From an uncultured Ruminococcus sp. (GTDB lineage: Bacteria > Bacillota > Clostridia > Oscillospirales > Ruminococcaceae), in assembly GCA_949291125.1 (NCBI GenBank), contig CASEUJ010000002.1, forward strand, positions 1 to 64,000: a stretch of 64,000 nt of DNA, in the 5' to 3' direction. This document shows, one piece after another, positions 60,086 to 64,000 of this stretch (the first letter of the stretch is position 1; each line of letters starts with the position of its first letter). A model generated the notes under the pieces. It was not told where the DNA came from, searched no databases, and saw nothing but the letters and a program-made list of their open reading frames with translations. The translations under genes and the position numbers were made by a program.

Positions 60086-62953
60086 TTACGGCAGTAGACG
60101 ATTGATATCACGCGGGAACATGCTTGCCTGACGAATATTTGAGAGCTTGAGTAATTTCATAACTAGACGTTCCAAACCAATACCAAGACCGCCGTGTGGC
60201 GGCAGACCGTATTTATGTGCTTCTAGGTAGTACTTAAAGTCTTCTGGATCAAGACCTTGTGCGCGCATTTTATCTAGCTGTTCCTGATAGTCATGAATTC
60301 GCTGACCGCCGCTTGTGATCTCCAATCCGCGGAACAACAGGTCAAACTTATATGCCAGACGCGGATCTTCTTTTGAATTCATTGCATAGAATGGGGGCTT
60401 GGATGACGGAAAATGGGTGACAAAGATAAAGTCACTGTCAAACGTTTCTTTTGCATATTCGCAAAGTGCCACCTCGTCTTCTGGTTCTAGATCAAGCTTG
60501 TTCTTCGATCCCTTGTTACCCAGAATTTCCTTTGCTTCCAAAAGCGTTACACACGGAATCTCACCAATCACTGGAATATCTGCTTCTAATAAATCCAGTT
60601 CGTATGCATAGTGCTCGCGTAGATAGTCCATAATGAAGCGTAGCGTTGCAGTTTCCATTGCCATAACATCATACATGCTGTCAATATAGCCCATCTCAAA
60701 GTCCAGACCGATATACTCGTTGATATGACGCGAAGTTGCGTGCTTTTCAGCGCGGTATACCGGTGCGATCTCAAACACACGATCGAAGAACGCAACGGCT
60801 GTCTGCTTATAAAACTGTGGAGACTGGTTAAGGAATGCAGGCTTGTCGAAGTATTCTAGGTGGAAAATATTGGCACCGCCTTCTGCACCCTGTGCCACGA
60901 TCTTCGGCGTGTGAATTTCAGTGAAGCCTTCCTTTAGCATGAACTGACGGAAACCGTTTGCAACACCTTCTTGAATGCGGAAGATGGAACGTTCATAGAT
61001 GTTTCGCAATGCAACAGAGCGGTTGTCGAGGTTGATATCCAGACCGCACCCCAGCTTTTTATTGGAGACCTTCAGCGGATATTCCGCATTAGAATGTGAG
61101 ATTACTTGCAAAGAAGAAAGCTGAATTTCAACGCCGCCCACTGCCTTTTCATTTTTGGTCACAACGCCGGATACACAGACAAAGTTTCCTTCACGCAGAC
61201 CGCTAATCGAATCTTTGCACTGTTCCGGAACATAGAGTGATTGTATCAGATAACGCCCTGTTCGCAGGATGATAAACGCGAAGCCACTCATCTGTCGAAT
61301 CTTGTGCACACAGGCGCGAATTGTGATAGATTCGCCCACATGATCGGAAGCATCAGAAAAGTCGAACTCATGGATCAGAGTGTCACCGCTGATCTGTAAT
61401 ACATCATTTCTTCGGGACGGTTTATAAGGATCAGGATTGGAATATGCAGTGCATTCATAAGTAACTGTAGCAGTAGTGTCTGCTTTCTCATCTGCACGTT
61501 CTGCCTGTGCTGTTGGCTTTGCTTCAGAAAGTTTCTGCTCCAAGATCTGCTTGATCACAGCCGGTGTGCAAACGCCACGCAACGTCTTTGTACACTGCCC
61601 CATCAAAAAGCCGAATACCTTCTTTTCGCCACCCTGATACTGCGAAACTGCTGCTGCATTTTCGGTAAGGATCTTTGCAATTTCAGCCTCTGCCTTTGCG
61701 GTATCATTCTGGATTAGCATGCCGGATTCCTTTGCAATTGTCATGGCATCTTTTCCGGTTTCAATCATGCTGCGCAGAATCTTCTTTGCATCATTTTTCG
61801 ACACCTGTTCAGTATCCGCCATTTTCACAAGTTGTGCAAATTCTTCCGGTGAGAAGGGGAGCGCCTCGATCGAAACTTCGCCCAAGTTTACACGGCGCAA
61901 GAGTTCAACAATAATGAAGTTTGCAATGTTTTTAGGCTGAGGATACGCAGTGACTGCTGCATCATAAAAATCAGAAACAATCTTCTGACCAATAATGATC
62001 TGGGCATCTGTCTTAGAAAGACCATAGTCTGTGGTGTAACGGCGCATTCTCTTATGTGGAAGCTCCGGCAGAGTTGCTTTGATCGTGTCCAGCATTTCAT
62101 CGGTAAAGTTCACCTGTAAAATATCCGGCTCCGGAAAATAGCGATAATCATGTGCATTTTCCTTGCTGCGCATTGAGGAGGTTTCACCCTTATTTTCGTT
62201 AAAGCGGCGCGTCTCCTGTACGACTTTCTTTCCGGCATCAAGCAGTCTAGACTGACGCTTGATTTCATAGTTAATGGCACGTGTGATGGACTTAAGCGAA
62301 TTCATATTCTTGATTTCAGTACGTGTGCCAAGTTCTTTGTCCTCCGGACGCATAATAGAAACATTGACATCACAGCGAAGCGATCCTTCTTCCATCTTAC
62401 AGTCGCTGACACCAGCATACTGCAGTAACAGAATAACTTTTTCAATAAACGCCTTTGCTTCTTCCGCAGAAGAGATATCCGGCTCAGTAACGATTTCCAC
62501 TAGCGGAATACCACAACGGTTATAGTCCGCCAGAGAAACGGCGTTGAAATCATCGTGCACCAACTTCCCGGCGTCTTCTTCCAGATGGATGTGGTTGATA
62601 CGGATCGATTTAGAACCATTTTCTGTTTCGATATCCACTTTCCCCTTCAAGCATAACGGGCGATAGAGCTGAGAAATCTGATACGCCTTCGGAAGATCCG
62701 GATAAAAATAATTCTTTCGATCGAAAACAGAAAATTTATTGATATCGCAGCCCAGCGCAAATCCAGCCTTTACAGCATATTCAACGGCGGTTTGGTTGAT
62801 TACCGGCAGTGTACCCGGCATACCGCTGCATACTGGGCAGCAGCGAGAGTTTGGGCTGCCGCCAAACTGTGCACCACAGGTACAGAATACTTTTGATTTT
62901 GTCAGGAGTTCCGCATGAATCTCCAGACCAATAACAGGAATATAGGATGACAT
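60086..62953 (-). CDS. Fusion of GatB amidotransferase subunit and aspartyl-tRNA synthetase (AspRS, likely non-discriminating)
   Basis: 955 residues in one frame from MSSYIPVIGLEIHAELLTK. Residues 1-475 are GatB: zinc Cys (VFCTCGAQ and CCPVCSGMPG), IHLEEDAGKL, EIVTEPDI and the C-terminal YqeY-like tail. A 50-residue Ala/Thr/Glu linker leads to an archaeal-type AspRS (526-955) with VFEIAPVYRAEKHATSRHIN, SSGGQRIHDY and GGLGIGLERLVM. His550 and Val605 occupy positions that in discriminating archaeal AspRS are Trp26 and Lys85, so this should charge tRNA-Asn with Asp. No in-frame start with a ribosome binding site lies at the junction. The fusion would join Asp-tRNA(Asn) formation to its amidation. 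AGGAGG is 13 nt upstream. Confidence 0.93.
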   Translation of the reverse strand: MSSYIPVIGLEIHAELLTKSKVFCTCGAQFGGSPNSRCCPVCSGMPGTLPVINQTAVEYAVKAGFALGCDINKFSVFDRKNYFYPDLPKAYQISQLYRPLCLKGKVDIETENGSKSIRINHIHLEEDAGKLVHDDFNAVSLADYNRCGIPLVEIVTEPDISSAEEAKAFIEKVILLLQYAGVSDCKMEEGSLRCDVNVSIMRPEDKELGTRTEIKNMNSLKSITRAINYEIKRQSRLLDAGKKVVQETRRFNENKGETSSMRSKENAHDYRYFPEPDILQVNFTDEMLDTIKATLPELPHKRMRRYTTDYGLSKTDAQIIIGQKIVSDFYDAAVTAYPQPKNIANFIIVELLRRVNLGEVSIEALPFSPEEFAQLVKMADTEQVSKNDAKKILRSMIETGKDAMTIAKESGMLIQNDTAKAEAEIAKILTENAAAVSQYQGGEKKVFGFLMGQCTKTLRGVCTPAVIKQILEQKLSEAKPTAQAERADEKADTTATVTYECTAYSNPDPYKPSRRNDVLQISGDTLIHEFDFSDASDHVGESITIRACVHKIRQMSGFAFIILRTGRYLIQSLYVPEQCKDSISGLREGNFVCVSGVVTKNEKAVGGVEIQLSSLQVISHSNAEYPLKVSNKKLGCGLDINLDNRSVALRNIYERSIFRIQEGVANGFRQFMLKEGFTEIHTPKIVAQGAEGGANIFHLEYFDKPAFLNQSPQFYKQTAVAFFDRVFEIAPVYRAEKHATSRHINEYIGLDFEMGYIDSMYDVMAMETATLRFIMDYLREHYAYELDLLEADIPVIGEIPCVTLLEAKEILGNKGSKNKLDLEPEDEVALCEYAKETFDSDFIFVTHFPSSKPPFYAMNSKEDPRLAYKFDLLFRGLEITSGGQRIHDYQEQLDKMRAQGLDPEDFKYYLEAHKYGLPPHGGLGIGLERLVMKLLKLSNIRQASMFPRDINRLLP

Positions 62954-62972
62954 AGTGATGTGCGTACCTCCT

Positions 62973-64000
62973 TTAAAGTACCGGTGCAACCGGTGTAAAT
63001 TGCTGCTCATAGGCATCAGCAACCTGTAAGATCGTGGCTTCATCAAACTGCTTGCCGATCAGGGACATACCGATGGGCATACCCGACGCATCATATCCGC
63101 AGGGTGTAGAAACAGCAGGAAGGGAAGCAATGTTGACGGTAACAGTACAGATATCTGCTTGATACATCTTTGCCGGATCAGAAATGTTTTCATGAATGCC
63201 ATATGCTACTGTCGGTGTTGTTGGCGTCAAGATTACATCACAGGATTCAAAGATGTGAGCATATTCGCTACGGATACGTTGTTTCAGTGCCATTGCTTTG
63301 CCGTAATAAGCATCATAGTAACCGCTGGAGAGAGCATAGTTTCCAAGGAGAATTCGGCGTTTTACTTCATCACCAAACCCCTCACTACGTGAGTTGCAGA
63401 TCAGTTCCTGAAATGTATCGCCTACTTTGCTACGATGTCCATATTTGATGCCGTCATAACGCGACAGATTAGAAGATGCCTCAGCAGAAGCGATCAGATA
63501 ATATGCTGCAACAGCATACTTCAAACTCGGCATGCTACATTCAATTAACTGTACGCCCATTTTTTCATAGGTTTTTGCTGCCTGCATAACAGCGGTTTTC
63601 ACGCCATCATCAATGCCGTCTGCATAAAATTCCTTTGGCAGTGCAATTCGCATTCCCTTGATCTCTTTTCCAAGCTTTGCGGTATAATCTTCCACTGCAT
63701 GTTTGGAAGATGTACCGTCATGGGGATCGAACCCAGAGATAGCGCCAAGCAGCAGTGCACAGTCTCTGGCATTATTGGCGATTGGTCCGATCTGGTCAAG
63801 CGAAGAAGCGAATGCTACCAAGCCATATCGCGAAACTCTGCCATAAGTCGGCTTTAAACCAGTTACACCACAGAATGCCGCCGGCTGACGAATCGATCCG
63901 CCAGTATCTGAGCCAATTGCAGCAGGTGCAAGAGAAGCAGCAACGCTTGCGGCCGAGCCACCCGATGAGCCACCAGGAACACGACCAAAATCATAGGGGT
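62973..64000 (-). CDS. gatA: Asp-tRNA(Asn)/Glu-tRNA(Gln) amidotransferase subunit A (partial)
   Basis: The frame enters at the window end and ends at 62973, giving about 342 C-terminal residues. Amidase signature blocks are present: VPGGSSGGSAASVAA and GSDTGGSIRQPAAFCGVTGL, with the Ser nucleophile in DTGGS and the cis-Ser in GGSSGGS. GLKPTYGRVSRYGLVAFASS and LTPTTPTVAYGI are further GatA landmarks. It releases ammonia from glutamine for the GatB kinase site. The catalytic Lys and start are outside the window. The gatB::aspS gene begins 20 bp after its stop codon. Confidence 0.96.
   Translation of the reverse strand, partial: PYDFGRVPGGSSGGSAASVAASLAPAAIGSDTGGSIRQPAAFCGVTGLKPTYGRVSRYGLVAFASSLDQIGPIANNARDCALLLGAISGFDPHDGTSSKHAVEDYTAKLGKEIKGMRIALPKEFYADGIDDGVKTAVMQAAKTYEKMGVQLIECSMPSLKYAVAAYYLIASAEASSNLSRYDGIKYGHRSKVGDTFQELICNSRSEGFGDEVKRRILLGNYALSSGYYDAYYGKAMALKQRIRSEYAHIFESCDVILTPTTPTVAYGIHENISDPAKMYQADICTVTVNIASLPAVSTPCGYDASGMPIGMSLIGKQFDEATILQVADAYEQQFTPVAPVL

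Follow-up and report, generated by a model that had tools for sequence, protein, structure and literature searches.

A natural fusion of GatB to an archaeal-type aspartyl-tRNA synthetase, the probable core of a covalent asparagine transamidosome

The window, the whole 64,000-nucleotide stretch of an uncultured Ruminococcus sp. analysed here, carries a gatB::aspS2 fusion gene in which the amidotransferase subunit GatB and an archaeal-type AspRS (AspRS2) share one polypeptide. Sequence comparison makes it very likely that this protein is the core of a covalent asparagine transamidosome making Asn-tRNA(Asn). The C-terminal AspRS would put aspartate on tRNA(Asn), and the N-terminal GatB, with GatA and GatC from its own operon, would amidate the resulting Asp-tRNA(Asn) to Asn-tRNA(Asn). 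A flexible tether of ~45 residues would run from the GatB tail domain to the anticodon-binding domain of AspRS, and because it joins the halves, the two transamidosome steps would be permanently linked and produced one to one. The protein presumably forms a complex with GatA, GatC and tRNA, and it is reasonable to expect that Asp-tRNA(Asn) would be channelled to the amidase. The relevant features are as follows.

60086..62953, minus strand: gatB::aspS2 fusion gene, 955 aa, one ORF with no internal stops on translation
61523..62953, minus strand: GatB moiety, residues 1-477, with catalytic domain at 7-288 and YqeY tail domain at 328-475 (NCBIfam, Pfam, fold match to 3H0L_B and 3IP4_B)
61385..61522, minus strand: spacer, residues 478-523, about 45-50 residues (alignment of fused rows, model)
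61418..61444, minus strand: spacer motif YSNPDPYKP, residues 504-512, fitting [YF]-x-N-x3-[YF]-x-P
60089..61354, minus strand: archaeal-type AspRS moiety (AspRS2), residues 534-955 (NCBIfam, Pfam, structure comparison)
61304..61306, minus strand: His550, equivalent of T. kodakarensis Trp26 (alignment to 3NEL)
61139..61141, minus strand: Val605, equivalent of T. kodakarensis Lys85 (alignment to 3NEL)
62967..62974, minus strand: Shine-Dalgarno-like AAAGGAGG, upstream of the gatB ATG
62973..64000, minus strand: gatA, same operon, exceeding the window and complete up to G000:C2:64424 (profile and homology searches)
G000:C2:64467-64745, outside the window: gatC, TIGR00135 over cut-off (profile search of the genome's contigs)

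An earlier note on this DNA had described one uninterrupted frame encoding a full GatB and a full archaeal-type AspRS, with no internal start signal at the junction, and both statements are borne out. The GatB half matches NCBIfam NF004012 at residues 3-477 (619.5 bits against a cut-off of 338), and the AspRS half matches NF003483, aspartate--tRNA(Asn) ligase, at residues 534-955 (523.5 bits against 353). Pfam domains over cut-off are GatB_N, GatB_Yqey, the OB-fold anticodon domain and the class II core tRNA-synt_2, with the GAD domain absent from the matches. We assign the AspRS half to the archaeal type because it shows the OB-fold and class II core without a GAD insertion; by contrast, this genome's bacterial AspRS carries the GAD domain. 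The sequences YRAEK (residue 733) and GIGLER (residue 924) are presumably class II motifs 2 and 3. The closest solved structure to the AspRS half is Thermus thermophilus AspRS2, the synthetase of transamidosome 3KFU (341.5 bits), and the GatB half likewise matches solved GatB chains, including that of 3KFU. Structures matched by an AlphaFold2 model of the fusion protein are those of GatB and AspRS, among them the GatB and AspRS chains of 3KFU; the relative placing of the two halves in this model is unreliable (pTM 0.49).

The operon runs gatC-gatA-gatB::aspS2, with gatC as a gene of its own and 19 bases between the end of gatA and the start of gatB downstream. In-frame start codons are absent over residues 476-538; the earliest are GTG539, GTG549 and ATG555, all within the AspRS domain.

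The fusion is not confined to one assembly. When we checked its spread in relatives, as the earlier note had proposed, the same single ORF turned up in 18 of the 197 family genomes sampled, spread over 12 of 125 genera, and also in L010 and L013, both named Ruminococcus MAGs. Archaeal-type AspRS was detected at E <= 1e-100 in 47 family genomes: 18 are fused, in a further 18 gatB and aspS2 are neighbours separated by a stop (9 in frame and 9 out of frame, with gaps of up to 309 bases), 4 carry the genes on different contigs, one (G146) shows the AspRS alone on the stretch examined, and 6 lie outside the junction count. A different order, with aspS2 upstream of gatA, is seen in 15 of 80 loci from named contig records, many of them Lachnospiraceae. 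The earlier note had held that a junction interrupted by a stop and a start in relatives would point to an assembly error. Such relatives do exist (18 of 47), yet 17 other family genomes, along with L010 and L013, are fused. Because both states occur among relatives, they form an evolutionary series rather than an error of assembly. That an assembly or frameshift artefact joined two genes, an idea to which the many stops at the junction lend some colour, is refuted by the same join in twenty genomes, in 19 of which the spacers are recognisably related, and we give it practically no credence.

A number of genomes looked fused at first pass. Direct translation revealed a stop at the junction in G089, G128, G092, G002, G176, G178 and G085, and likewise in G173, G098, G117, G132, G193 and G246, as well as in L011 and L012, which had appeared fused by match length; all are counted as unfused. 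A search of the order (394 genomes, E <= 1e-150, two candidates scored per genome) gave G246, with its stop, as the sole further match to both halves.

Most genomes that carry the fusion appear to depend on it for asparaginyl-tRNA. The window's own genome, 87% complete, encodes three full-length synthetases of the class II D/K/N group, namely the fusion, a bacterial AspRS adjoining HisRS, and LysRS, plus an extra weak D/K/N match inside HisRS; the search for a separate AspRS and an AsnRS that the earlier note had suggested thus found the former and, at this completeness, no AsnRS. Across the fused genomes AsnRS (TIGR00457, E <= 1e-90) had no match in 16 of 18, 11 of these 16 being at least 98% complete; AsnRS is present in G138, a same-genus genome that lacks the fusion. 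On gene content, then, no other route to Asn-tRNA(Asn) was found in most genomes that carry the fusion. Matches to AsnB in 17 of the 18 mean that the system is not needed for free asparagine, and it is more likely to be about Asn-tRNA. The tRNA itself is compatible with this role: a pattern search found tRNA-Asn in 7 of 10 genomes (none in G027, G138 and G111), genes could be parsed from 9 of 12 pattern loci (not L201, L204 and L206), and all nine have U1-A72 (six distinct sequences in six genomes, four of them fused, the window's own genome included). Recognition of the U1-A72 pair by bacterial GatCAB is described in PMC4206432. Archaeal-type AspRS, GatCAB genes and a U1-A72 tRNA-Asn thus occur together in the window's genome. 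The earlier note's interpretation as a covalent transamidosome fits this context, with its own GatA and GatC, a separate bacterial AspRS and no AsnRS match, and is on the whole partly supported.

Two fused genomes of one genus, G111 and G190, do have AsnRS. Among the 29 unfused AspS2 genomes, AsnRS is present in 20 (in G194 as a sub-cut-off fragment only) and missing in 9. A Fisher test of fusion against missing AsnRS over the 47 genomes gives p 0.0002 with kinship ignored; with kinship respected, 2-3 independent pairs remain and the association is not significant (sign test, p = 1), so the statistical link is weak.

The supply of Gln-tRNA bears on how exclusive the tether can be. At E <= 1e-40, GlnRS was found in none of 47 of the 48 genomes tested, the window's genome among the 47. 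This genome has a second GatA-GatB pair on contig 33. In 7 of the 18 fused genomes (G009, G035, G055, G056, G065, G103 and G113) a single GatB came up at E <= 1e-20, with all GatB candidates scored in G009, G056 and G065 (75, 85 and 99% complete), and GlnRS was found at the same threshold in none of the seven. With one GatB and no GlnRS match, the fused enzyme of these genomes should serve tRNA(Gln) as well, and the tether therefore cannot exclude other synthetases.

We infer from the alignments that the AspRS half is non-discriminating and would charge tRNA-Asn. Mapping on T. kodakarensis 3NEL confirms the earlier note's assignment of His550 and Val605 to Trp26 and Lys85 of the Thermococcus enzyme. 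The non-discriminating AspRS2 of T. thermophilus (1N9W) has His at the Trp26 place and Pro at the Lys85 place, a pair that we take to be the non-discriminating signature; of these two marks the window protein carries the His and has Val605 in place of the Pro. Position 550 is His in 18 of 20 fused rows (Tyr in 2) and in 38 of 38 unfused AspS2 rows aligned. Position 605 varies freely in the clade, with Pro in 1 of 20 fused and 13 of 38 unfused rows. The two-residue pattern that the earlier note had read as non-discriminating thus stands for the conserved His550 and fails for residue 605.

In the separate, bacterial AspRS of the window's genome one loop position is Leu. At this place the pattern matched 19 loci whose bacterial-type AspRS is adjacent or fused to GatB, and all of them have His; the His loop also occurs in L171, L172, L174 and L175, four rows outside the 19, and L164, L173 and L208 gave no match to the pattern. 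We assume that His versus Leu in this loop (P. aeruginosa H31) separates non-discriminating from discriminating bacterial-type AspRS; the term P. aeruginosa H31 did not occur among the papers listed in our literature search.

The spacer diverges much more than the two enzyme halves and has a sequence pattern of its own. The earlier note had called it a 50-residue low-complexity linker; the length holds at about 45-50, with low complexity in the first half only and a fusion-specific motif in the second. The full motif [YF]-x-N-x3-[YF]-x-P is present in 15 of 20 fused rows, in the same set of rows from which it was derived, and its end [YF]-x-P in 19 of 20. When both gene ends were inspected in adjacent-unfused loci, none of 22 had the full motif. 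The first 25 residues are more acidic than basic in 16 of 20 fused rows. Pooled dN is 0.50 in the first half and 0.25 in the second, compared with 0.05-0.06 in the enzyme halves; the frame is kept, and the pooled spacer dN/dS of 0.18-0.27 (seven pairs) is a rough ratio because dS is near saturation. Model confidence is low (pLDDT < 50) at residues 479-527, where the alignment holds only three fused rows, and also in six other stretches within the enzyme halves. A tether of this kind would plausibly span the transamidosome geometry.

How often this fusion arose depends on the gene considered, since the number of changes between fused and unfused states needed is 3 on the concatenated tree, 4 on the GatB tree and 2 on the AspRS tree. 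On the concatenated tree of 47 rows, from which L074, L035, L144, L021, L018, L159, L158 and L142 (long branches, outgroup or unpaired) and loci with one gene of the pair were left out, the fused rows as a single clade give p-AU 0.064. A single origin, with splitting or transfer afterwards, is tentatively preferred in view of the motif common to the spacers.

At L119-L122, L160, L162-L164 and L166-L170 the gatB is of the window's type, and the gene after it codes for a separate AspRS of bacterial type in place of the archaeal-type one, as if one synthetase had been substituted for the other. GatA next to unfused gatB-aspS2 at L132:4708-5478 and L133:8466-9338 is 47% and 40% identical to the window's GatA, as if swapped; for comparison, the GatA of L125, L126, L147 and L149 is 78-81% identical to it.

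AspRS and the amidotransferase are joined in other ways elsewhere in Clostridia. A Clostridiales Family XIII MAG encodes GatB followed by a bacterial-type AspRS in one 1148-residue ORF (L078:4042-7488), with the GAD domain present by Pfam, the His loop, and gatC and gatA upstream; this fusion, known from this one MAG, is unrelated to that of the window. The same MAG has a separate bacterial AspRS with the Leu-type loop RRLGG and a short LysRS-like fragment, so labelled by eye; no AsnRS was matched in the assembly, whose completeness is not given. A search of the class for such fusions (391 genomes, E <= 1e-170, two candidates scored per genome) listed no match to both halves, and a 1137-aa frame in G649 that had been considered as a GatB-AspRS fusion has a stop inside. 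In nine of ten clostridial loci chosen for long AspRS frames (L187-L195) the bacterial-type AspRS is extended at its C terminus, and downstream lie a GatA of only ~390-410 aa and GatB, or at least its start. The extension is GatC, over the Pfam cut-off, in both proteins scanned, L188 (4344-6419) and L189 (4654-6732); a weak GatC tblastn match (29.6-37 bits) is seen in 8 of the 9 loci, L193 offering a likeness by eye only. NCBIfam NF009460, bifunctional AspRS / GatC, spans most of the length of L188 and L189 at scores far below its cut-off. There are therefore three or more different covalent joints: GatB with archaeal-type AspRS, GatB with bacterial-type AspRS, and bacterial-type AspRS with GatC. 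That a second, unrelated GatB::AspRS fusion arose where the Leu-type AspRS is separate and AsnRS has no match implies that linking the two has value, and the recurrence of different fusions suggests that linked steps are favoured.

The synthetase-amidotransferase link itself is known, as AspRS-GatC is already a named NCBI model and 3AL0 contains a GatC-linker-GluRS chain. NF009460 describes a natural covalent link of the same kind, but with GatC as the partner of AspRS; on this model the window protein reaches 90.6 (cut-off 1379), and its gatC is a separate gene. In the glutamine transamidosome of T. maritima (3AL0), chain C tethers a synthetase to an amidotransferase subunit by a linker, as in the window protein, although it joins GluRS to GatC rather than AspRS to GatB. 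Chain C is presumably engineered, its name including 'Linker'. The asparagine transamidosome of T. thermophilus (3KFU; AspRS2 also 1N9W) uses, as proposed for the window protein, a non-discriminating archaeal-type AspRS with GatCAB on tRNA-Asn, but as separate chains and with the Pro, in contrast to the single chain and Val605 of the window. An additional AspRS and GatCAB are, as here, reported from a clostridium, Clostridium acetobutylicum (Saad et al. 2012, as discussed in PMC4206432); that discussion mentions no fusion, and the title of Saad et al. gives T-box control. No T-box reached the gathering score in ten of our loci, the window's operon included, or in 8 of 9 loci of another set. 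The exception, a T-box leader at L035:3964-4179 (113 bits), precedes a cluster of unfused gatA, gatB and aspS2. A fusion of gatC to gatA is reported from M. smegmatis (PMC7541841). Fusions of GatB with AspRS were absent from the open-licence literature among the matches listed, and the best 25 of 26 NCBIfam families for the window protein include no model of one.

Several observations weigh against the transamidosome reading: Val605 is not Pro, AsnRS occurs in G111 and G190, few independent events lie behind the AsnRS link, the seven single-GatB genomes sit awkwardly with strict channelling of Asp, and the model leaves the halves loosely placed. Two of these, Val at residue 605 and the need of single-GatB fused genomes for the fused GatB in making Gln-tRNA, would suit an AspRS half that discriminates for tRNA-Asp, or a GatB half serving tRNA-Gln only, with Asn-tRNA made otherwise. 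We consider this very unlikely, given the second, bacterial AspRS with its loop Leu in the window's genome, the 16 of 18 fused genomes with no AsnRS match and the conservation of His550. It is also improbable, though a little less so, that a protease cuts the disordered spacer to yield ordinary GatB and AspRS2; the predicted disorder would leave residues 479-527 exposed, but free AspRS with a near-natural start cannot be obtained by internal initiation in the window.

A neutral or stoichiometry-driven origin is harder to set aside and seems a possible, if rather doubtful, account of the tether. On this view the gatB stop would have been lost in a gene pair that was already adjacent and sometimes in frame, the pathway is the same, and the tether gives equal dosage, not channelling; because the pathway is shared with the transamidosome reading, the odds of the two overlap. 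The 18 of 47 genomes with adjacent unfused genes, half of them in frame, and the fast-evolving, low-confidence spacer are as it would predict, whereas a motif kept across most fused rows, the separate fusion in L078 and the AspRS::GatC fusions are not. Returning to the covalent transamidosome, we tentatively extend it to a picture that is quite possible, if short of our favour: Clostridia would have arrived at covalent transamidosomes on three or more occasions, each through a different joint, and in single-GatB fused species the amidotransferase would act as a hub for one fixed and one exchangeable synthetase, its flexible motif-bearing tether letting AspRS swing away.

The fusion would thus be a natural one-chain counterpart, found in some gut bacteria, to a complex put together elsewhere among bacteria from separate parts. 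The need for in vivo hand-over of mischarged tRNA by mesophilic transamidosomes is hard to test with parts that dissociate. Fused and unfused relatives within one family would provide matched pairs for tests of leakage, fidelity and stoichiometry, and the natural fusion may offer a ready-made stable particle for structural work.
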